A DNA stretch of 64,000 bases from Prochlorococcus sp. AG-409-M05 (lineage in GTDB: Bacteria > Cyanobacteriota > Cyanobacteriia > PCC-6307 > Cyanobiaceae), in the NCBI GenBank assembly GCA_003215435.1, contig QCKJ01000004.1:1-64000 (forward strand), written 5' to 3'. Made by a program: the position numbers and the translations under genes. The stretch's first letter is position 1. Every line of letters begins with the position of its first letter. Of the stretch, positions 776 to 13,294 are shown in pieces. The notes below the pieces were generated by a model, which was given only the letters and a program-made list of their open reading frames with translations, did not search any database and was not told the DNA's origin.

Positions 776-849
776 CGGGGCGTGGCGCAGTTTGGTAGCG
801 CGGGTGCTTTGGGAGCACTAGGTCGCAGGTTCGAATCCTGTCGCCCCGA
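776..849 (+). tRNA. tRNA-Pro(UGG)
   Basis: Acceptor CGGGGCG/CGCCCCG, anticodon loop TTTGGGA (anticodon TGG), T-arm CAGGTTCGAATCCTG. Confidence 0.95.
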
Positions 850-881
850 CTGGCTTTTCGGCGATCTTAAATTGGGACTGG

Positions 882-924
882 GCCCTCATTGGGCCATCCT
901 GAGCGATTGGTTGTGAGGGCTTTC
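882..924 (+). terminator. Possible terminator downstream of tRNA-Pro
   Basis: Inverted repeat GCCCTCA...TGAGGGC followed by TTTCTGTTTC; weak. Confidence 0.3.
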
Positions 925-1101
925 TGTTTCTTCCTGGAATGCACGGAAGAACAAGCTTTCTGATATTGAGATAGCTGCATTCAACGTTCACGCCGCCCAA
1001 GTCCACAACGCTACTTATGCCCAGTGGAGTAATAAGTCGAGAGTGGAAGACTCACTGCAACGGGCGATACGATTTAGAAATCTCACTGATAAAAAAATAA
1101 A

Positions 1102-1473
1102 ATGAGCAATGAGATCACAGCTGAACATGCCAAGAAAGCTCAGGGAGAAGCTGAATGGGCCTATGAGAAGGCAAAGGAAAAGTTCTACTACTCAATGTTG
1201 GAAGTCGTTTTCCTAAGAATCAAAAGTCATCTCAGCGAACAAGGCTTAAAGAAAGTCATGGAGATGGATGAGAGAAGGAATAACAACGAAAACTTGGGGG
1301 TGGAATTTAGTCAAAAGACGTGGGTAGCTTTAGCAGAGTCTTGGGCAAGTGCAGAAGGTCTAGCAATGACCAAAATTGCAGATCTATATGGGCTGGAGAT
1401 AGCTGACTTGGATATGTCTAAGATCTCTCCTTATGAAGAGAAAGATTGTGAGGATGATTGTTCTTGTTGCTAG
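1102..1473 (+). CDS. Hypothetical protein with Cys-rich C-terminus (DCEDDCSCC)
   Basis: ATG-initiated 123 aa ORF, acidic, Cys cluster at the end. Confidence 0.7.
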   Translation: MSNEITAEHAKKAQGEAEWAYEKAKEKFYYSMLEVVFLRIKSHLSEQGLKKVMEMDERRNNNENLGVEFSQKTWVALAESWASAEGLAMTKIADLYGLEIADLDMSKISPYEEKDCEDDCSCC

Positions 1474-1512
1474 ATGATCAACTTACTGAAAGCACGCTAT
1501 AAAAGTTGGGTT

Positions 1513-1581
1513 CATATGTCTTGGGTGCACAGGCTGGTAATACAAGCGCAGCAAGTAGTGGCAGTAGTAAGCGTTTCATTT
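1513..1581 (+). repeat. Degenerate direct repeat copy 1
   Basis: CATATGTCTTGGGTGCACAGGCTGGTAATACAAGC... matches 3230-3298. Confidence 0.6.
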
Positions 1582-1787
1582 ATTTCGAGCTTGGTAAAGA
1601 TCCTTGTAATAACAACATTCATCACCACAAAGAAAATGCGGAGACTTTGATTCTTCTGAAGGGAAATAGGCTCGACCTTCTTTCACTTTTATATTGCGTG
1701 CACCATAGAGCTCAATTAAATTTAGTAATTAGCCTAGAGATGCTAGATAAAAAACACTTTTTTGAATGCTATTGAATTCTGGATCAT

Positions 1788-2552
1788 TCAAGGTGCCTCC
1801 ATTTTATTTTGCACGCTAATTGACTCACTAAACCCTGAAGCAAGTATTCCTGTAGGGATTGCTATAGCTCCAATTCCCATAAGGGATGTTACCGATGCAA
1901 TCGTTTTTCCAAGTGCTGTAACTGGGATTGAGTCGCCATAGCCAACAGCGCTTACGGTTGTAATAGACCACCATAGGCATCTAGGAATAGACCCAAGTAA
2001 TTCTGGTTGAATAGATGACTCCGCAAGATACATAAAAGTGCTGCTGATTAGCAATAGCAATACTGTATAAAAGGTTGATATTTGTAGTTCTTGACTCCTT
2101 GATCTAAGTGCATAGTTAAAGTGAAAAATACTTTGCTTGAATTTTTCATTTCTTCCAATTTTTAGTATTCGAAGTAGACGAATAATTCTTAGAATCTTCA
2201 ATTCGTTGCGAACACCTATAAATGACGGGATGATTGCGATCGCATCTATAATTGCCATTGGCGAAATCATGTAGCGCAAAACACCCTTTACTCCTTTTCC
2301 ATATTTATCTTCAAGAGGTGCCACCCATAAGCGGAAAATGTATTCAATACAAAACAAACCACCAATAATCCAATCTAATAGGTCTATTTGGTCTCCAAAT
2401 TTATAATCGATTGAATTTTCAGTAACTATGACTGCAAAAAAGATCGAAATAAAGATGGTGAGTCCACATATTTTATTGAATAAAGAAGTTCTGCTTCCTG
2501 GAGTTTTGTTCACTATCTGTTCATAGATTCTTAGACGGAGGTCATTCATCAC
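1788..2552 (-). CDS. Voltage-gated potassium channel-like ion transport protein
   Basis: S4-like LKILRIIRLLRILKIGR and selectivity filter TTVSAVGYGDSIP; multiple TM segments. Confidence 0.88.
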   Translation of the reverse strand: MMNDLRLRIYEQIVNKTPGSRTSLFNKICGLTIFISIFFAVIVTENSIDYKFGDQIDLLDWIIGGLFCIEYIFRLWVAPLEDKYGKGVKGVLRYMISPMAIIDAIAIIPSFIGVRNELKILRIIRLLRILKIGRNEKFKQSIFHFNYALRSRSQELQISTFYTVLLLLISSTFMYLAESSIQPELLGSIPRCLWWSITTVSAVGYGDSIPVTALGKTIASVTSLMGIGAIAIPTGILASGFSESISVQNKMEAP

Positions 2553-2765
2553 TACCTAAACGTTTAAACAAGTTTCTCTTAAGTTAGTCAAATCATGCAA
2601 ATGTTCATGCAAGTCAAATAATTCCAACAAAAAGATTGACACAAGTGAATCTGTTGTGTGCTATTTGCCTATAAAAGACTCTAAGTCCAAGCGGTGTTGA
2701 ATTGCACTGAATAGATCCACTGGCGGAGGCATTAAAAGGCCTTTGTCATTTGGTTATAAAGGAGC

Positions 2766-2936
2766 ATGACTGACTTCGTTTGGATAAAGCTTAAGAACCT
2801 TGCTAGAGCTGATGGTCTCAAAAGAATATATTGTCTGGCTATATTTATAAAAAGGTTTGACGGACAAAAACCAAGTTTTGACGCTCCTCGCAGAAAAGGA
2901 TCTAGTCAGAGCCTTCAGTTAGTGTCCGCCACCTAA
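2766..2936 (+). CDS. Possible small basic protein (56 aa)
   Basis: ATG preceded by AAAGGAGC; MTDFVWIKLKNLARADGLKRIYCLAIFIKRFDGQKPSFDAPRRKGSSQSLQLVSAT*; not in the supplied ORF track. Confidence 0.25.
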   Translation: MTDFVWIKLKNLARADGLKRIYCLAIFIKRFDGQKPSFDAPRRKGSSQSLQLVSAT

Positions 2937-3229
2937 GGGCAAGGCAGTAGAGACTCAGACCAGAGATAGGAGTAAGAGAAGGCTTATTATTACAATCTGA
3001 GCTTCTTTTTAGTCTAACCAGCTGCTTTTCCTTCTAAACCTTTAAGGCCTAATAACTTCACCTCTGGCTTTATCTAAGCCAGTTCAATCCCTAAAATTGT
3101 TCTGTTTTTCAGTCTTTATAAAGCAACATTTAGCAGGAACCCTTCATGTAACCGCGTGATGCATCCCTGTCCTTCTCGAACATAAAAATAAATACCCCCC
3201 CCAAGAGAAGAAATCTTTCTCGTAGGATC

Positions 3230-3298
3230 CATATATCTTGGGTGCACAGGTTGGCAATAAAAGCTAATCGATAATAGAAGTTATAAGCATTTCATCTT
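3230..3298 (+). repeat. Degenerate direct repeat copy 2
   Basis: CATATATCTTGGGTGCACAGGTTGGCAATAAAAGC... matches 1513-1581. Confidence 0.6.
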
Positions 3299-3450
3299 TT
3301 CATTATATTTTTGATATAAAAGTAGAAGCTTATTCTGTGAAAGAAACGGAACTGAACATGCGACGATTACTCCTTGCAACGCCGTTGCCCTATATGACCT
3401 TGTTAGATCAGCTTATGCAAAAGATTAAAACAATGTGCTAATTTATATTA

Positions 3451-4638
3451 TTGCAGCATTTATTTATGCAGGGTTTTATATCGGGTTTCAAAGACTTTAC
3501 GAGGCCTTTAAGGCTTTACTATCCTACTGTAATTAGGTTACTCTTGCTAAGAAAGATAATACTTTTAGTTGATTATTTGATCACCTATCGATTAGTAAAG
3601 ATCGGCTTAATAAATAAGATTGAATCTGTAATTGTTCCATGTGATCTAAAATCCAAGATCTACGTATACCCATATTATTTACGAATGCTTGCCGCTAGAA
3701 CATATTCATTAATGAGATCTAAATTATTGCCTGCTAAAAGTCCTAAGCTTAATAATATGAATAATATAGTACTTCAAGGACTTGATAAAGAAGGCCATTG
3801 CAATAAGGCACCATTACAAATACCAATTAAGACCTGTGAGAAAGTAATTAGTTTCTTTTCTAATCAACCTTCATATTTTGGTCATGGTTATGATGCAAGT
3901 GTTGGAGGTAAAAAAGAATCATTAGCATCATTGAAAAGAAATAATCAACCTCTTCCAAAATATATTTCTTATAGTTATGGCGTGCAGTTTAATTGTTTTG
4001 AACTTCTTGATTTGATTATACAGCCGACTATTATCGATATTGCTCATTCCTATTTAGGCTGCATCCCTAAGATCGAATATATAAATACTTTCTGGACTCT
4101 TCCTTCAGATGAAGTGGCTTGGCTTTCAGATTTTCATCGAGATATGGATGATTATCTTTGTCTAACTGTTATAATTAATTGGACTAATACAATTAAAAAT
4201 AATTCTGGAACTAGATATATTAAAGGAACTCATCGCCCATCTCCAGAGCTTACAGTTAAGCTTAAAGATTCCATGGAATTAATCTTCTCAGCTCAAAAGA
4301 TTAATTCATTAACTGATGAGAAGATGTTTGATTTATTTAGAGCTTCTTCTTTTCCTGGCTATCAACAAAATACAAGGTATGAAAATATTTTTTCAAAGCC
4401 TGATGATTATTTAACATCATCAGGGAGACAAGGAACAATTTGTTTTCAAAATAATGAAGGTTTACATTGTGGTCCAAAATTTGAGGGCGAGCGTTTAATC
4501 AGTTGGGTCCGTTATGGAAATTCTGGTGGAGTTCCTGGAAGAACTGTAGACATGCAAGATGTGGCATTTCTACCAGAACACAAAGATATAATCAGGTTAA
4601 ATGAATATGGATTTTTGCTTGAAGAATTATTTTCTTAA
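3451..4638 (+). CDS. Phytanoyl-CoA dioxygenase (PhyH)-like Fe(II)/2-oxoglutarate oxygenase
   Basis: HxD motif in FHRDMDD, distal His in EGLHCG followed by ERLISWVRY; start codon uncertain. Confidence 0.65.
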   Translation: MQHLFMQGFISGFKDFTRPLRLYYPTVIRLLLLRKIILLVDYLITYRLVKIGLINKIESVIVPCDLKSKIYVYPYYLRMLAARTYSLMRSKLLPAKSPKLNNMNNIVLQGLDKEGHCNKAPLQIPIKTCEKVISFFSNQPSYFGHGYDASVGGKKESLASLKRNNQPLPKYISYSYGVQFNCFELLDLIIQPTIIDIAHSYLGCIPKIEYINTFWTLPSDEVAWLSDFHRDMDDYLCLTVIINWTNTIKNNSGTRYIKGTHRPSPELTVKLKDSMELIFSAQKINSLTDEKMFDLFRASSFPGYQQNTRYENIFSKPDDYLTSSGRQGTICFQNNEGLHCGPKFEGERLISWVRYGNSGGVPGRTVDMQDVAFLPEHKDIIRLNEYGFLLEELFS

Positions 4639-4814
4639 CTTTTTACATATTTAAATTTGATATATGAAAACCATATTAATTTGAAAGGATCTGCCAAAAC
4701 TTTGAGTTCCATTTTACGTGCCAGAGATTATTGTAAAGTTGTTCCTCCATAAGCAAGATAGGAAAAGTAAATCTCCAAAAAATTTGCATTTAATCATCAT
4801 GGCAAAGAAATTTG

Positions 4815-4841
4815 GGAGTGGGCAAAAAATTTGCTCACTCC
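4815..4841. other. Strong intergenic hairpin
   Basis: GGAGTGGGCAAA-AAA-TTTGCTCACTCC, 12 bp with a single G:U; no T-run follows on the + strand. Confidence 0.5.
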
Positions 4842-4923
4842 TCTCATGTTCCTAAATGACATCTCATAGATCTGTAGACTTATTGCTATGAGTTAAAACC
4901 TTATTGGTGCTAATAGCTTCCCA

Positions 4924-4979
4924 CGTCCTTTGGAAGAACTAAATCAAGGGTCTAATCGTGTCACCTCGACTGGTTTCTC
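4924..4979 (+). repeat. Degenerate tRNA-Pro 3' fragment A (candidate att remnant)
   Basis: CGTCCTTTGGAAGAACTAAATCAAGGGTCTAATCGTGTCACCTCGACTGGTTTCTC aligns to tRNA-Pro anticodon arm through 3' end plus flank, roughly three quarters identical. Confidence 0.75.
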
Positions 4980-5044
4980 AATCATTAGAGCAAGTACTGC
5001 TATTGATTTACTGCCGAAAAGGTATTGAACAAAAACCTAATTAA

Positions 5045-5317
5045 CTATCCATAAATTTTCGCGACAATCGGACCAGCCTGCTCGTCTGTAAATACTGGAG
5101 TTGTCTCCCACTCCATAAATTCGCCCCAGTCAGCTGCATGCTCATATAAAGATGTTGGATCATCCGTTTCAACTAATATCCAGCCTTCTAAAGACCCTGG
5201 GCCGTGATAACGGCCCAGCATATTTGCCCTGGGGTAAGGAGCTTGCGTCGCTAAGAATTTCCTTGCAGCTTGCTCGTGGTAACCAGTTTTAAATTTCCAG
5301 TGCTGTATGTAGTGCAT
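5045..5317 (-). CDS. DUF3303-like protein
   Basis: MHYIQHWKFKTGYHEQA...GWILVETDDPTSLYEHAADWGEFMEWETTPVFTDEQA. Confidence 0.75.
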   Translation of the reverse strand: MHYIQHWKFKTGYHEQAARKFLATQAPYPRANMLGRYHGPGSLEGWILVETDDPTSLYEHAADWGEFMEWETTPVFTDEQAGPIVAKIYG

Positions 5318-5441
5318 TGATCAAGTTGGTTTTGAACGATTCAACCACAGTTTGCCACTTAGTACATATAGAGGCAAAAGTTATATTGTCAATTAAAGAA
5401 AAAATTTCTAAATCTCTTTTCTTTAGAAGTACCTGGCCAAA

Positions 5442-5467
5442 AGTTCGGATCCTGTCGGTGCTACTGG
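5442..5467 (+). repeat. Degenerate tRNA-Pro 3' fragment B (T-loop to 3' flank)
   Basis: AGTTCGGATCCTGTCGGTGCTACTGG vs GGTTCGAATCCTGTCGCCCCGACTGG. Confidence 0.6.
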
Positions 5468-5571
5468 TTGTTTAAGGGTAAAAATGTAGCAGACAGAAAA
5501 AGAGTATGAAAGCTTTGCTCCTTTCTAATGTTGGATTTTTCTGCTATTCAAAAGTAAGTTGATTTTATCTG

Positions 5572-5799
5572 ATGCTTAGAACAACCGAAAAAAAAGCACT
5601 CACACGTCTCTTCCTTTTGGGAGTGGGGGCTCCAATTGGACTAGATAGGTTTTATGAAGGAGATATGACAGGGGGATTTCTTGCAATTATTGGATTTTTA
5701 CTAGCAGCCATAACTGTTTTTGGATTGTTGATTTGGATTTTCCCTTTCGTTTCAAAAACGTTTAGGTTGCTGAGAGAATTTGAGACCTCGGATGAATAA
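5572..5799 (+). CDS. TM2 domain-containing protein
   Basis: GAPIGLDRFYEGDMTGGFLAIIGFLLAAITVFGLLIWIF two-TM pattern. Confidence 0.75.
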   Translation: MLRTTEKKALTRLFLLGVGAPIGLDRFYEGDMTGGFLAIIGFLLAAITVFGLLIWIFPFVSKTFRLLREFETSDE

Positions 5800-5897
5800 T
5801 GCCTAGAAAGAACTAGCTCATTTATTCGAACGATCTAGGTGAATAGGCCCTATTGAGTTAAAGAAGCAATCACTTGCTAAATAGTCACTAATAGCAT

Positions 5898-6173
5898 TCA
5901 GTTTTTTCTAATTTGTCTATTTTGTGAACTATTCATATCCACTGTTTCCAGTCTGCAATCCTCGGCTTTGGGGAGTTGCAACCAACCACTCGTCCACTTT
6001 GAGTGAGTTTTTAATTCATCCCAAGAGACCCTGATTAGAAGTTCTTTTCTATTAACTGCAAATAGTTCTACCCATCTCTCAGTCCCTTTCCCGCCAAATT
6101 GTTTTAGTTCAAAGTGTCGGTAACCTTCACGCCTTTTTGTAGACGTCCAAGCTTTATTAGGTGGCCACCTCAT
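5898..6173 (-). CDS. Trp-rich small protein, TIGR02450-like
   Basis: RWPPNKAWTSTKRREGYRHFELKQFGGKGTERWVELFAV. Confidence 0.8.
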   Translation of the reverse strand: MRWPPNKAWTSTKRREGYRHFELKQFGGKGTERWVELFAVNRKELLIRVSWDELKTHSKWTSGWLQLPKAEDCRLETVDMNSSQNRQIRKN

Positions 6174-6187
6174 AGTTTTTTAAAAGG

Positions 6188-7156
6188 CTAAGACCTTAAA
6201 CTAACACCTAATAAATGTAAACGATCTAAGGATCTCCTCATTTCTGAATCAAATTCTCGTTGCGAAAGATTATCTAAAGATTCATAAATAGATATTCTTT
6301 TAGAACGGAAAACAAGCCCATGCTGTCTAGCTCTATCGCTTTGATATTCATCACCTGACTCTGGCAAAGAATATGGTACTTCTGACCTGTCTAATCCAGA
6401 ATCCCTAGCAATATTCCACTGTAGAGAGATCTGCTTTTCAGATTTAACTCCATGAAATTCTGCCAGAAGAAGTAAAAACTGGTTAAATCCAATAGGGTCA
6501 GCTGAGACGTTATAAATACCATTTCGATTCAAAATAATACTTTTAACTGCAAAGTCAACTAAATCTCTTACATCTAACAATTGAATCTGCCTCTTTTTAT
6601 CATCAGAAAATACAATTGGTCGGGCGAGATTAGAAATCAGATCTGACCAAAACTTCAATCTTAATGTATGATCGTATGGACCAATTAATATACATGGTCT
6701 GAGAATAAGTAATTGTTTATCAAAAAAAGACCTGTAAATAGATTCACACTTAGATTTATTTAGCGAATAGTTAACGTTAAGGTGTACAGAATCTTGCAAT
6801 TCAGTTTCATTAACAGTAGGGGAGTTTTCATCTATTCTAGGAAAAGAATTCTTGTAGACATATGCCGTAGATAAGAAGCAAGTTTTAGCAATCGAGTCTC
6901 CCAAGACTTGAACAACTGCTTCACTTTGACGAGGTGTATAGCAACAAGTATCTATTAACCAGTCATAATTATTTTTTACAAGTCTAGATAGATCTTCCTT
7001 TTTATTCCTATCTCCCAATACCTCATCAAGTTCTAGATCTTTTTCAATTGGATTAATGCCTCTGTGGAAAACAGTCAATTCATGACCTAATTCAATAAGT
7101 TTTCTAGAAAGCAATTTTCCTTGAAAACGTGTACCACCAATAATTAAAATCTTCAT
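6188..7156 (-). CDS. NAD-dependent epimerase/dehydratase (SDR)
   Basis: N-terminal KILIIGGTRFQGKLLSRKLIELGHELTVFHRG. Confidence 0.85.
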   Translation of the reverse strand: MKILIIGGTRFQGKLLSRKLIELGHELTVFHRGINPIEKDLELDEVLGDRNKKEDLSRLVKNNYDWLIDTCCYTPRQSEAVVQVLGDSIAKTCFLSTAYVYKNSFPRIDENSPTVNETELQDSVHLNVNYSLNKSKCESIYRSFFDKQLLILRPCILIGPYDHTLRLKFWSDLISNLARPIVFSDDKKRQIQLLDVRDLVDFAVKSIILNRNGIYNVSADPIGFNQFLLLLAEFHGVKSEKQISLQWNIARDSGLDRSEVPYSLPESGDEYQSDRARQHGLVFRSKRISIYESLDNLSQREFDSEMRRSLDRLHLLGVSLRS

Positions 7157-7224
7157 AAAGAGAATATGAAAAATGAAGATTCATAATTGAATTCTAATCT
7201 GGCGTATAACATGTCTAAGGAAAA

Positions 7225-7998
7225 TCAAGTGGAGTGGCTAGAGGTATAAGAGAGAACACGTTCTACAACAGATTCACTTTTACCAGCTATTAAGCCATTA
7301 TGAGTTAATCCAGGCTGACCAAAAAATATTTCTTTACCATCAAGATCCTTCAATGTGCCTCCCGCTTCACTTAAAATCAATTTTGGTGCCGCCAAATCCC
7401 AATCTCTAGGATTCATATCTTTAAAAAATAAATCCACAGTGGAGTCTGCAACCCTACATATTTTCAGGCCAATAGAACCAGACTCAATATAAGTAGGTAT
7501 CTTAAAGTCATTTATTAAGCTCTTAACAAACCCACTAGGCACTGGAGAGTTATCTATTATTGAATTGATATTACTATTTTCTGATAACTTTATCTTTATT
7601 CGCCTATCATTATGCCAGGCACCTTCGCCTCTAATAGCAGAAAAATATTCTTGAGTCTCTGGTGCATATATACAGCTTGAAATTACTTGAGAGTTTTGTA
7701 TTAATGCTACTTGACTAACCCAGCCTGAGAAACCTTCAGAATAACTTCTTGTCCCATCAATAGGGTCTATTATTATATATTTAGGATACTGATTGTTATC
7801 TATTTTGTTATCTTCTTCGCTAACAATTGGTAAATCATATGCTTTGGAAAGTTCCTTTATAAGAAATGAATGAGCTATCTTATCTGCATTGGATTTGAAT
7901 TGCTCTCCTTCCCAATACCCCTGGCTTCTCATGCACTGAGGAATTGATAAAAGTTTATCTCCACATTCTGCTAAAATATTCCTAAAGCTTACGTCCAT
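7225..7998 (-). CDS. Inositol monophosphatase / CysQ-like phosphatase family protein
   Basis: EEDN, DPIDGTRSY and DWDLAAPKLILSEAGG motifs. Confidence 0.85.
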   Translation of the reverse strand: MDVSFRNILAECGDKLLSIPQCMRSQGYWEGEQFKSNADKIAHSFLIKELSKAYDLPIVSEEDNKIDNNQYPKYIIIDPIDGTRSYSEGFSGWVSQVALIQNSQVISSCIYAPETQEYFSAIRGEGAWHNDRRIKIKLSENSNINSIIDNSPVPSGFVKSLINDFKIPTYIESGSIGLKICRVADSTVDLFFKDMNPRDWDLAAPKLILSEAGGTLKDLDGKEIFFGQPGLTHNGLIAGKSESVVERVLSYTSSHST

Positions 7999-8000
7999 CT

Positions 8001-9008
8001 TTATAGGATCTTATAATTTTTAAATTGATCTAATGACATAAATTGGTCGGATGTATGTCTAATCATAACCACATTTTCTTCCCAAGAACCAAAACCTTGA
8101 AAATCTTCAGGAGCCAATGCCAATTGTAAAAGTCCGCCAAGCTCATCAAAGCCTGCAGCAATTGTTAGAGTAGTAGATGTACTAAATCGGGGATTTATTT
8201 CAAAAACAACTGGCTTACCGTCCTTATCTAACTTTAACTGGACATTAAATGGACCATTTGCCCTAAAGTTGTCTTGTATAGATTTGCATAAATCGATTAT
8301 TAATTTATTTCTCTCAGTCACAGCAATTTTTGTGACTCCAACCTTTGAAACTATCTTTTTTGGTATCACATCATAGAGTGTACCATCTCTCCAAGCTACA
8401 ACACTAACCGTATATTCATCTCCAGGGATGTAAGGCTGTACAATTAATTCCTCGGTAGAATAAATGCTTGATTTAATAAATTTATTTAGTTCTTCTTCTG
8501 AGTTAACCAAGCCAATCCCCCTACTACCTCGACCTACCCTTGGCTTTAAAAAAAGAGGGTATTTTTTATCAGATTTAATATCAGAGAGAAGAAAAGATCT
8601 AGCACAACTAATTCCAACATTCAAGAGGGCATCCATACATTTAAGTTTATCTAAGCAAATCTTTGTAAAATCTAGCCTTGGCTGTATTACCTTTAATGAA
8701 GGGGTCTCTAATTCTAGAGTTTTTATTAGTTCTTCGTCAACAATACTAATAAGAGCGTCTACAGATTCTTTCTTGCAGATATTGCTTAAAGAATGTAGAA
8801 ATTCAGGAGAGTCTCCTCTAGGTACTAAATAAGATTTGTCAGACAAGTAAAAAGCAGGGGAAAACTTTTGCATATCTACTGTAATTATTCGGGCACCATA
8901 ATTACGTAGAATGGATATCATTCCTGCAGGTGCAGGTCCACCTGCTCCTGTTAACAAGATTGTTCTCCCTTTTAGATCATGTTTAAAGGTATTTTTCATA
9001 TCTAGCAA
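8001..9008 (-). CDS. ATP-grasp domain protein (CarB-like fold)
   Basis: Preceding Rossmann-like ILLTGAGGPAPAGM, PLFLKPRVGRGSRGIGLV, EINPRFSTSTTLTIAAG. Confidence 0.85.
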   Translation of the reverse strand: MLDMKNTFKHDLKGRTILLTGAGGPAPAGMISILRNYGARIITVDMQKFSPAFYLSDKSYLVPRGDSPEFLHSLSNICKKESVDALISIVDEELIKTLELETPSLKVIQPRLDFTKICLDKLKCMDALLNVGISCARSFLLSDIKSDKKYPLFLKPRVGRGSRGIGLVNSEEELNKFIKSSIYSTEELIVQPYIPGDEYTVSVVAWRDGTLYDVIPKKIVSKVGVTKIAVTERNKLIIDLCKSIQDNFRANGPFNVQLKLDKDGKPVVFEINPRFSTSTTLTIAAGFDELGGLLQLALAPEDFQGFGSWEENVVMIRHTSDQFMSLDQFKNYKIL

Positions 9009-9700
9009 ATCTTCCTGACCACTTTAAATGCTTCAACGTATTCTAGATTACAGCTTAGTCCTCTATATTGTGCAATAGTTAAAATTCCTATCTTACTCCT
9101 AGGAAAAGGGAAAGGTCTTTCTTCACTTGAATAAAAGCTCCAAGCCTTTAACTTAATATCCCAAAATTCCTTGATGTCTACAAATATATTTGGTTTAAAT
9201 GTTGTCTCAAATGTCCAAGATCCAGAACATGGAATTTCAAATGTGTATATTTCGTTTGGCGTATATTCTCTATTAGGTCTACAGGCGACCTCAACAGCTT
9301 CATATGTGATTCTATGGTCAATATTTACTTCAGAAGGATTATGGGTTAATAATATATTAGGCCTGAATTTATCAATTTGTAATTCAATCTCTTTTACAAG
9401 CGATAGAAGAGGGTAAGTATCAAATTGAGTGCAAAGTCGTTCTCCGAATACTACGCGATTTATTCCAAGATAGTCGAGAGATCTCTTCGCCGATTTAATT
9501 CGAGTCTGCGTCTGTTTAGCAAACTCGATAGAGTCATATTCACTGATCGGGAACCTAGCTGAAACACCTTCACCTAAAAACATGACCATGACTTCAGCAT
9601 TCTTAGAAAGAGCTTTAGCCAAAGTTCCACCGCAGCCCAAAATCTCATCATCTGGATGAGCGGCAACAACTAAAACTTTTGATCCTTTATAAAAATCCAT
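9002..9700 (-). CDS. PIG-L (LmbE-like) deacetylase family protein
   Basis: VAAHPDDEILGCGGTLAKAL and HNPSEVNIDHRITYEA. Confidence 0.9.
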   Translation of the reverse strand: MDFYKGSKVLVVAAHPDDEILGCGGTLAKALSKNAEVMVMFLGEGVSARFPISEYDSIEFAKQTQTRIKSAKRSLDYLGINRVVFGERLCTQFDTYPLLSLVKEIELQIDKFRPNILLTHNPSEVNIDHRITYEAVEVACRPNREYTPNEIYTFEIPCSGSWTFETTFKPNIFVDIKEFWDIKLKAWSFYSSEERPFPFPRSKIGILTIAQYRGLSCNLEYVEAFKVVRKIC

Positions 9701-10028
9701 AAATAAATTGTAAATACTCCAGAAAGCTCAAATGTACAAGCTTTTGAAAGGTTAACACTAGAAATAAAAGTCCGCATGCCTTATGAGAGATAGTCAACAG
9801 AGAATAGTTAGCTACTCGATTGAGAATAAACAAATATTTTATGTCTAATGTCTAATGGATAACAGCAACAGCCACCTTAAAAAAGAGTATATTCGTTTGC
9901 CTCTATTAATGCTTTGAAAACCAAAAAAGGTTATCATTCAGGTCCGTAATTTTTAGTTACACCTATCAGAGGTTTAAGTCATAGTATTTTTTTCGTTTGA
10001 TTCACTGATTTATTTAACCATACTTGTT

Positions 10029-11057
10029 CTATAAACCTTTTTTTTGGTCTTGTTGTTTTGTGTTGTTTAATTCGCAATTCCGCTTGAAAAATACTGAAGA
10101 TTCTTTATCACCTAGATCTGTTGCTTTTATAAGATCTAAACAAGCCCCATCTTTATCGCCTAAAAGATATCTAGATCTTGCACGATTAACATATGCATTA
10201 ACATACTTGGGATTTAGTTTAATTGCTTTTGTGTAATCAAATATTGAGCCTTGATAATCACCTAGTTCGTTCTTTACAAGGCCACGTTTACTGTAGGCAA
10301 GAGCATTCTGCGGATCAATTTGGATGGCCTTGTTATAGTCAGAGATTTCTCCTTTTAAATCCCCTAGTCTTCTTCCCTTAGTATTGCCCCTATTGATATA
10401 TGCATCAGCACGTTTTGGATTAAATTTGATTGCTTTGCTGAAGTCAAATATAGCTTTCTGGTATTGACCTAGATTGGACTGAGCGATACCACGATTGTAA
10501 TATGCGTTATCATACTTTGAATTAACTTTTGTTGCTTCGGTGTAATCTAATATTGCTCCCTGATAATCACCTAAATCAAACTTAATGTTACCACGGTTGA
10601 AGTAGAATTCAGCACAACTAGAATCAATTTCTATAGCTTTAGTGTAATCATATATTGCCTCTAGGTGATCACCTAATTTAGACTTTGCATTACCTCGGTT
10701 ACTATACGCGCTGGCATAACTTGGATCAATTTCTATTGCCTTATTGTAGTCAGAAATTGCTCCCGCATAATCACCTAATTCAGACTTTGCATTACCTCGA
10801 TTGTTATATGCACTGGGATAAGTTGGACTTATTAGTATTGCCTGACTGAAATCTGATATTGCTCCTTGATAATCTTTAATTCTGCTCTTAAACATTCCAC
10901 GCTTATAGTAGAAAGAATCTTTCAGAGTCTCTATATCTCTTGAGGCGGCAACAACCGGAGATCCCCTAAAAAATGTCTGTTTTAACGTAAGGGGGGGTAA
11001 GCAAAAAGGAGTAATAACAATAACTCCTAAAGCAAAGGTATTACTTCGGATTTTCAT
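10029..11057 (-). CDS. Secreted/anchored TPR repeat protein
   Basis: Multiple 34-aa repeats (AYxNRGxAKxxLGDYxGAIxDYxKAIEIDP), hydrophobic N-terminus. Confidence 0.9.
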   Translation of the reverse strand: MKIRSNTFALGVIVITPFCLPPLTLKQTFFRGSPVVAASRDIETLKDSFYYKRGMFKSRIKDYQGAISDFSQAILISPTYPSAYNNRGNAKSELGDYAGAISDYNKAIEIDPSYASAYSNRGNAKSKLGDHLEAIYDYTKAIEIDSSCAEFYFNRGNIKFDLGDYQGAILDYTEATKVNSKYDNAYYNRGIAQSNLGQYQKAIFDFSKAIKFNPKRADAYINRGNTKGRRLGDLKGEISDYNKAIQIDPQNALAYSKRGLVKNELGDYQGSIFDYTKAIKLNPKYVNAYVNRARSRYLLGDKDGACLDLIKATDLGDKESSVFFKRNCELNNTKQQDQKKGL

Positions 11058-11171
11058 TCGTACAAAGGGGCAACATTCAAAAGTTACTCAAACCATAGTT
11101 TCTTTTCTATAAGGTTCAACCCTAATAATAAAGATTGGGACTATAACCAAGCCAGCTAAGGTAACGGAATC

Positions 11172-11188
11172 CTTTGGGAGCACTAGGT
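11172..11188 (+). repeat. tRNA-Pro fragment C (anticodon arm)
   Basis: CTTTGGGAGCACTAGGT is a 17-nt exact match to tRNA-Pro positions 807-823, same orientation. Confidence 0.75.
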
Positions 11189-11219: not shown

Positions 11220-11694
11220 CTAAATCAATTCACTTTGGGCTTTGCTTGGTCGCATTTTGATCGGGTAATCGCGTAGCATTTCGAAGTCGGCAAAATCAAA
11301 ACCTGAACCAACACAACAGCTCATCAATGTATAACCGCCTTCACTGCGAGCGACTTGCCACCATCCTGCTGGGATCATCTAAATAGGATTAGATGAATCC
11401 AATTTCAGATTGATTAATTCGTTTTTCCGGATCAAGTCGCCAGAGAGTTAATGGTGCATCTTGTAAATAAATCCAGATTTCATCATCATCTTTCACTCTA
11501 TGGCAACAACTTCTATCCCCCTCGCCTAGTAAAAGCAAGATCCCAGTGATGTTGTACCTCTTTTGCCTATCAGGACGTTCAACTCTTAGGTGACTACGAC
11601 AAACCTCTCGATACCAACCTCCTTCTGGATGAGGGGATAACTGAAATTGTTCAATCAGCTCAGGAAATTTAATGTTGTTGGAGTGTTCCTTCAT
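11220..11694 (-). pseudogene. DUF985 cupin-like pseudogene
   Basis: N-terminal ORF LIEQFQLSPHPEGGWYREV...DEIWIYL...LDPE; C-terminal homology continues in another frame as LDSSNPI*MIPAGWWQVARSEGGYTLMSCCVGSGFDFADFEMLRD, i.e. one frameshift plus one in-frame TAG. Confidence 0.8.
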
Positions 11695-11887
11695 TAAGCC
11701 ATCGCCAAAGTTGTGACTAGCCCTTCAACAACCTTTAAGAAAGGTCCAAGTGAATTATCAGCAAGGGCAGTGACTTTGAGTGAGGGGGATATCCAAGGCA
11801 TCCTGGTCAACACTACATGACATCTCAATACCTTTTAATGCGTTTTTTATGATCTCATTTTTGTTTATTTATTGCCCAGAGTATCGA

Positions 11888-13294
11888 CTAGAAAGACTCC
11901 TGCAAGATCTTTATTAGTTTCTCTAAGGCTACTTTTCTACTGGCCTTTAGGAGCACAGCATCGCCAGGGCTTAGCCACTCTCTCATGTAAACGCCCGCCT
12001 CTTCCGGTTCACTTACAACTGCAAATTTCCTAACACATCCTGAAACTATCTCTGACATAACTTCAACTTCGGAACCTTGTAGTACTAATACCAGTCCATC
12101 AATTTCTAATTCAACAATTTTCTCAGCAACTTTCTTATGCAATGAAATGCTTTGTTCACCTAGCTCCATCATTTTTCCAAGGACAGCAAAACGTCTTCCA
12201 GGCTGTAGTGCAAGAAGTTCAAGTGCAGCGACAACGGCTTCCGGGGAAGCGTTATATGTCTCATCCATCACAGTTATCCCTCCAACAAGAATCGATTGGC
12301 TACGTCCAGTAGGCATATCAAGCTCTAGTCGGGTCAAACCACTCCAGGGGACGCAAAGCTCCCTGGATACTGCTAGGGCTAACATAAAGTTCTGAGCATT
12401 ATGCCTACCCTTAAGAGGTAAGTTAAAGCTCATTCCCTCTACTTCGAGAAGACCTTTGTTCAAGTCTAATGTTCCTTTTAGATCAGCTTTAGGGGAGAAC
12501 TCATTCTGTCTTTCATCTAAATGAGATTTCTTAATATCAACATCCTCTTCGATTCCTATACGGACAACTCGTCCATTCCAAGTCTTAGAGAGTGCTTGTT
12601 CTAAAAGGAGATCACCTGCAGGGATGATGACTAAGCCAGAAGGATCCATTCCTGCAGTTACTTCACACTTAGCTTTTGAAATTGCTTCACGACTGCCCAG
12701 CAAACCAATGTGAGCTGTCCCTACATTAGTAATTACTGCAACACTTGGCTTCGCGCAGCAAGATAATCTTTCTATCTCTCCTTCCCCCCTCATACCCATT
12801 TCAACAACCACCGATGAGTGATTAGATTGTGTCTTTAGCAATGTGAGGGGAACACCAATATCGTTGTTTTCATTTCCTTTACTAGCCAGTACCTTTCCAT
12901 TTGAAGACAACGCCGACCTAATCAATTCTCTAGTGGTGGTTTTTCCAGAAGAGCCAGTTACAGCAACTACTGGGATATCAAATAAACCACGATGTAATGA
13001 AGCCAGTTGTTGATAGGCCTGAAGAGTGTCCTTCACAATCCAATGGAATAAGCCACTGGGTACATGGTGCTTGCAATTCTTAGAGACAACAGCGGCCAGG
13101 GCTCCACGGTCTAAAGCCTCTCCTAAAAAAGCATGTCCATCGAAGTTTTCACCAATTAAGGGAACGAAAAAATCTCCCTCCTTAAGCTTACGACTATCAG
13201 TACAGACATTACCAACCGTTAGTTCAAGGCAAGATTCGTCTGAAGGCCAAGGGGCCCCCCAAAGTTGATTCAAGTCTCTAAAGAGCAGGCTCAT
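11888..13294 (-). CDS. murF: UDP-N-acetylmuramoyl-tripeptide--D-alanyl-D-alanine ligase
   Basis: VTGSSGKTTTRELI, GNENNDIGVPLTLL, MDETYNASPEAV. Confidence 0.95.
   Translation of the reverse strand: MSLLFRDLNQLWGAPWPSDESCLELTVGNVCTDSRKLKEGDFFVPLIGENFDGHAFLGEALDRGALAAVVSKNCKHHVPSGLFHWIVKDTLQAYQQLASLHRGLFDIPVVAVTGSSGKTTTRELIRSALSSNGKVLASKGNENNDIGVPLTLLKTQSNHSSVVVEMGMRGEGEIERLSCCAKPSVAVITNVGTAHIGLLGSREAISKAKCEVTAGMDPSGLVIIPAGDLLLEQALSKTWNGRVVRIGIEEDVDIKKSHLDERQNEFSPKADLKGTLDLNKGLLEVEGMSFNLPLKGRHNAQNFMLALAVSRELCVPWSGLTRLELDMPTGRSQSILVGGITVMDETYNASPEAVVAALELLALQPGRRFAVLGKMMELGEQSISLHKKVAEKIVELEIDGLVLVLQGSEVEVMSEIVSGCVRKFAVVSEPEEAGVYMREWLSPGDAVLLKASRKVALEKLIKILQESF

Follow-up and report, generated by a model that had tools for sequence, protein, structure and literature searches.

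Layered, decayed insertions at the tRNA-Pro gene of a Prochlorococcus genome and their probable link to a divergent family of tyrosine recombinases

Near the start of contig C4 in the draft genome of Prochlorococcus sp. AG-409-M05 (1.69 Mb in 32 contigs), an intact tRNA-Pro(UGG) gene is followed, from 0.86 to 11.19 kb, by an island of accessory genes with pieces of the same tRNA among them. This arrangement raises the question of whether the island was built by insertions at the tRNA gene and, if so, by what machinery and in how many steps. Our analysis of the window, that is, the first 64 kb of contig C4, was based on assembled sequence throughout and showed that the island is real and consists of layered tRNA-Pro insertions that are now decayed, a kind of island that is already known. 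The tRNA-Pro(UGG) gene is very probably the attachment site of elements with tyrosine recombinases of a divergent family, and the three tRNA fragments (R1-R3), the left end and the integrase relic in the following list are very probably their scars.

776-850, plus strand: intact tRNA-Pro(UGG), the attachment gene (ARAGORN)
851-917, plus strand: left end of an element inserted immediately after tRNA-Pro (80-90% match to the left ends in relatives)
953-1093, plus strand: relic of a tyrosine recombinase C-terminus, 47 residues, with the region of the catalytic Tyr kept (62% over 47 residues to the integrase of relative G003)
4863-4915, plus strand: right end of the insert of which R1 is the scar (77% over 53 bases to the corresponding end of an insert in relative G078, in exact register)
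4926-4982, plus strand: R1, tRNA-Pro 3' fragment, tRNA positions 30-84 plus flank (profile E-value 3.7e-7)
5420-5457, with a weaker match (envelope) to 5477, plus strand: R2, tRNA-Pro 3' fragment, tRNA positions 31-68 (profile E-value 2.6e-4)
11170-11188, plus strand: R3, truncated tRNA-Pro fragment, tRNA positions 30/32-48 (profile E-value 2.8e-3; 17/17 bases)

An earlier note, made from the letters of the window, had placed the intact gene at 776-849, one base short of the ARAGORN call, and a genome search found it to be the sole copy with a UGG anticodon in the draft genome. To detect fragments, we used a profile hidden Markov model built without any sequence from the window, from the tRNA ends and fragments of 20 relatives and from 19 viral sequences. 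Over the 64 kb, the profile found tRNA-Pro (E = 1.7e-20) and, besides it, only R1, R2 and R3; the next match had an E-value of 1.7. The three same-orientation partial copies of the earlier note were thereby recovered, with the start of R2 moved from 5442 to 5420. R3 covers only tRNA positions 30/32-48, without the 3' end, and is therefore a truncated piece; its reading as a full-length fragment with a gap had no backing from the profile.

The note had also proposed a shuffled background as a check on the fragments. Smith-Waterman scores against tRNA-Pro were 32, 25 and 34 for R1, R2 and R3, respectively, and 100 Markov shuffles of the 11 kb region, scored on both strands, reached at most 26; thus R1 and R3 hold up singly, whereas R2 as first described does not and was found by the profile. 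The profile scores of the fragments (25.7, 16.6 and 13.3 bits) compare with top scores of 13.4 and 10.9 bits in 500 shuffles of the island. That the fragments are chance matches is hardly credible: R2 and R3 are individually weak, but the profile E-values, the shuffles, the same strand, the same edge and the negative result with other tRNAs (the 3' parts of five were searched in the island, with zero matches) all speak against chance, which is refuted for R1. The 5' edge of R1-R3 always lies at tRNA position 30-32, in the anticodon loop, and all three are on the same strand.

The left end directly behind the tRNA gene recurs in G030, G035, G121, G128 and G018 (relatives are given by G numbers). 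In G030 it stands behind a fragment at +2070; since a flank of the 851-917 type lies there behind a fragment 2.1 kb from the tRNA, the window represents the state without the G030 insert. In a comparison of uninterrupted sites, the window is empty for this 2.1 kb insert; the reverse does not hold. In G121, the left end in common with the window belongs to a 15 kb element that bears an integrase. The integrase relic showed matches to the integrases of G051, G030 and G129 similar to that of G003, and zero matches to phage records. The earlier note had seen no recombinase in the island, and the 47-residue relic corrects that statement; it is, however, the only integrase content of the island, and a search for more integrase pieces beside R1-R3 found none.

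The edge of the fragments is also that of viral sequences. Among 20 IMG/VR contigs with the exact 37-base tRNA-Pro core, 18 have an edge identical to that of R1-R3, and the remaining 2 hold a fuller tRNA. An integrase-like gene of 403-466 codons lies on the minus strand directly 5' of the tRNA match in 13 of the 18. Both viral proteins tested are labelled integrase by PHROGs, and Pfam detects neither; among three proteins of the tRNA-Pro integrase family from relatives, only that of G057 matches Phage_integrase in Pfam, below the cut-off. Because of this layout and the integrase homology, we read the viral tRNA-Pro stretches as putative phage attachment (attP) sites. The same integrase family is found directly before the distal tRNA-Pro fragment in G057, G003 (twice), G038, G114, G129 (twice), G051, G092, G016 (twice), G035 and G121, the layout expected if an element circle opens beside its own integrase gene on insertion into the tRNA. 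These findings, together with the flank match of R1 described below, back the tRNA-directed layered integration and later decay that the earlier note had proposed for tRNA-Pro.

Several further observations concern this integrase family and its surroundings. G018 and G035 depart from the usual layout: their intact tRNA-Pro has an integrase of the family on its upstream side (about -1.5 to -0.2 kb). The one Phage_integrase match in the genome of the window (C4:105428-106609) is a full-length distant member of the family, and no tRNA was found in the 20 kb read around this gene. Content resembling that of phage satellites stands right behind the tRNA in G129 (+1126 and +2868 from tRNA-Pro), G051 (+2613) and G114 (+2266); it includes a VapE-like primase/helicase in G129 and a capsid protein with prohead protease in G051, both by Pfam, and look-alikes in G114 and G129. 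G066 holds several tRNA-Pro fragments about 960 kb from the intact gene, and in G093 two complete copies of tRNA-Pro are separated by 1.1 kb.

We infer a reaction in which the recombinase would act within the part of tRNA-Pro between the anticodon loop and the 3' end; an incoming element would restore the tRNA, and the displaced 3' part would stay at the far end of the element. R1, R2, R3, the left end at 851-917 and the integrase C-terminus at 953-1093 would be the scars of at least two, and probably three, insertion events in this genome. There is no intact integrase in the island, so nothing there is able to move on its own now; the fragments with their common edge likewise agree with the earlier view of at least two old integrations, now immobile.

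Four points weigh against this account. The integrase relic runs opposite to the intact elements of relatives, and its closest DNA match, in G121 (75% over 136 bases), is in the opposite orientation. None of the known insert ends matches the 5' flank of R2 or of R3. Although truncated, R3 has the best-preserved core (17/17 bases, against 11/17 over that core in R2 and 75% overall in R1), which argues against simple layering, and the strict order in which the outermost copy would be the oldest does not hold. Finally, the genome is the sole representative of its genus in the comparison set, and the insertion steps are not traceable in a sister genome.

The sequence on the 5' side of R1 provides a more specific link. 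Aligned in register, the 62 bases 5' of R1 and the right end of the G078 insert agree at 44 of 62 positions; the same set of ends reached at most 31 at other offsets. The G078 insert is 2.0 kb long and integrase-less. In a survey of the tRNA-Pro loci of 36 relatives, 49 intervals between successive fragments were delimited, with counts that vary with the cut-offs and with incomplete contigs; 31 of the 49 were at most 3.1 kb long, and an integrase piece overlaps one of these, whereas 16 of the 18 longer intervals overlap a match to the integrase family (in G010 and G030, pieces only). Four small inserts with different genes have both ends in common, about 64 bp on the left and about 170 bp on the right. 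Such shared ends suggest that the integrase-less inserts of relatives are non-autonomous cassettes, possibly moved in trans.

It is accordingly conceivable, as a variant of the insertion account, that the scars, R1 foremost, derive from small recombinase-less cassettes for which phages or larger elements using the same tRNA supplied the integrase in trans. We regard this as the less probable version: the resemblance of R1 to the G078 end, the abundance of short intervals nearly free of integrase pieces and the shared ends of the four inserts favor it, but deletion could have reduced larger elements to the small intervals, the contigs are incomplete, and the relic in the window implies at least one element with its own enzyme. 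The size peak near 2.0 kb is not robust either; a sharp 2.0 kb insert unit (10 of the 31 intervals at 1947-2097 bp) gave p = 0.01 under a uniform and 0.47 under a log-uniform null once homologous pairs were removed, and is not claimed. As a tentative generalization, the tRNA-Pro of marine picocyanobacteria might gather small cassettes that lack a recombinase, have conserved ends but vary in cargo, and are moved in trans by phage or element integrases, in an integron-like manner, with R1 as a worn example. A separate observation is that the right ends of small inserts in G057, G003, G015 and G077 contain, some 170 bp ahead of the fragment, a second stretch resembling tRNA-Pro; its anticodon-loop part is inverted (ctcccaaag, then cactaggtcgc).

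At the outer border of the island, the following features lie.

11220-11694, minus strand: broken Cupin_5 (DUF985) gene in two pieces (Pfam)
11695-11887, no strand: synteny break, murF without its usual neighbor glmU (glmU is beside murF in 20/20 relatives)
11888-13294, minus strand: murF, start of the core run menB-glgA-murF (Pfam, synteny)

The decayed cupin gene reported beside the outermost tRNA copy is thus present, as a Cupin_5 gene in two pieces; however, the idea that this copy marks the original border with core murF fails. The 3' end of murF meets glmU in all 20 relatives, within 40 bp in 19 and at about 0.7 kb in G114; in the window, it is followed by the broken cupin gene, with R3 and the island beyond. 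A single glmU was found in this genome, on contig C20, which extends 11.8 kb beyond it. Together, the order in relatives and the position of its own glmU indicate that the border at 11.2 kb arose by rearrangement or misassembly. Since murF is not the ancestral neighbor, empty-site strains joining tRNA-Pro directly to the 11.2 kb side, as the earlier note had expected, should not exist.

We favor the view that a rearrangement joined the murF side to the island; a later rearrangement of the chromosome would have cut the island and placed murF at its far edge. Misassembly is less likely. A chimera of assembly or amplification, with the true far end of the island elsewhere, would suit a draft of 32 contigs whose order differs from that of 20/20 relatives, but the sole glmU found is also away from murF on a contig that reaches 11.8 kb beyond it, and the draft shows no second murF-glmU copy; we consider a chimera unlikely. 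One inversion spanning the tRNA-Pro island and murF/glmU was considered as a cause, with mixed results: the orientation of glmU and of a dienelactone hydrolase on C20 fits, but C20 runs into urease genes, which lie elsewhere in relatives. On C20 (1-13978), glmU faces this hydrolase, followed by an SRAP protein and other accessory genes and then ureC-ureB-ureA, an order not seen in the relatives checked; close homologues of the hydrolase lie 9-37 kb behind tRNA-Pro in G051, G030 and G049. On the other side of the island, trmFO, which in relatives is a core neighbor upstream of tRNA-Pro, is found on contig C12, 2 kb from its end, a position that fits an order with C12 ahead of C4.

The broken murF-glmU order also bears on whether homologous recombination and rearrangement, acting in a hypervariable region, brought in or arranged the block, the tRNA pieces being duplications that arose without site-specific integration. 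The regions behind tRNA-Pro in relatives have no common core genes up to 75 kb, and the segment at 1044-1509 has a counterpart in G051 with 94.4% DNA identity, 40 kb behind the tRNA-Pro of that genome. The MurF of G051 is only 52% identical, so the segment points to a recent exchange. Nevertheless, a single 5' edge in the fragments, the relatives and the integrase-adjoining viral contigs is unexpected from general recombination, and we consider this alternative very unlikely as a substitute for insertion at tRNA-Pro.

The island is about 73% covered by open reading frames (ORFs), and its content of guanine plus cytosine is 36.4%, compared with 41.7% for the rest. Pfam scans of the island ORFs found neither phage structural or replication genes, as a prophage would have, nor replication or other tycheposon hallmark genes. 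The cargo is as follows.

1102-1473, plus strand: ORF of 123 residues, accessory and presumably recently exchanged, within the 1044-1509 segment
1788-2552, minus strand: ion channel gene (Pfam Ion_trans, Ion_trans_2)
3451-4638, plus strand: ORF of 395 residues with no Pfam family (ORF list, Pfam scan)
5045-5317, minus strand: DUF3303 gene, between R1 and R2 (Pfam PF11746; homologues in the tRNA-Pro regions of relatives)
5898-6173, minus strand: DUF2389 gene (Pfam PF09493; the G030 homologue is likewise behind a tRNA-Pro fragment)
6188-9700, minus strand: cluster of NAD-epimerase, inositol monophosphatase family, ATP-grasp and PIG-L deacetylase genes (Pfam)
10029-11057, minus strand: TPR-repeat protein gene (Pfam)

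In relatives, homologues of the 123-residue ORF, the DUF3303 and DUF2389 genes and a 75-residue ORF occur behind tRNA-Pro, but their distance from it varies. The island also has two copies (1533-1587 and 3250-3304) of a repeat of about 55 bases, with 23 more in the tRNA-Pro regions of relatives and none in 20 core (murF) regions; it may be the island repeat element reportedly described by Coleman et al. 2006.

The same authors are said to have already noted tRNA-Pro remnants in Prochlorococcus islands. In established tDNA-directed islands, insertion restores the target tRNA and leaves a displaced fragment (PMC4383910). Like those of Islander (PMC4383910), the present island begins with an intact tRNA gene and has displaced 3' fragments in the same orientation (R1, R2 and the truncated R3), an integrase relic and accessory cargo; it differs in its succession of three decayed fragments, its lack of an intact integrase and its rearranged far border. 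Cyanophages are known to integrate at tRNA-Met (P-SS2; PMC2784084) and tRNA-Leu (P-SSP7 and S-TIP37; PMC8776855), and pseudo-tRNA copies occur in a host island (PMC2784084). The viral contigs resemble these phages in that an integrase adjoins a stretch, here a putative attP, identical to part of a host tRNA; unlike them, they involve tRNA-Pro, are uncultured, and carry an integrase family nearly invisible to Pfam.

Prochlorococcus tycheposons were reportedly described by Hackl et al. in 2023 in Cell. Tycheposons remodel islands, which is one likeness to the tRNA-Pro island. Further likenesses, following the descriptions in PMC10872708 and PMC10187409, are insertion at a tRNA gene, a divergent tyrosine recombinase in the elements of relatives, and cargo. 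PMC10872708 states that tycheposons use seven tRNA genes and are 4-200 kb in size; by that account, the window differs in holding a recombinase relic only, and many tRNA-Pro inserts of relatives are below this range and recombinase-less.

The analysis ties a decayed island to its machinery through one attachment edge found in viral contigs, where an integrase adjoins it, in the integrase-bearing elements of relatives and in the scars of the window. Less familiar than the kind of island are the small integrase-less inserts with common ends in relatives. If the cassette interpretation is true, phages and larger elements could use these inserts to carry single genes into abundant marine cells, which is directly testable.

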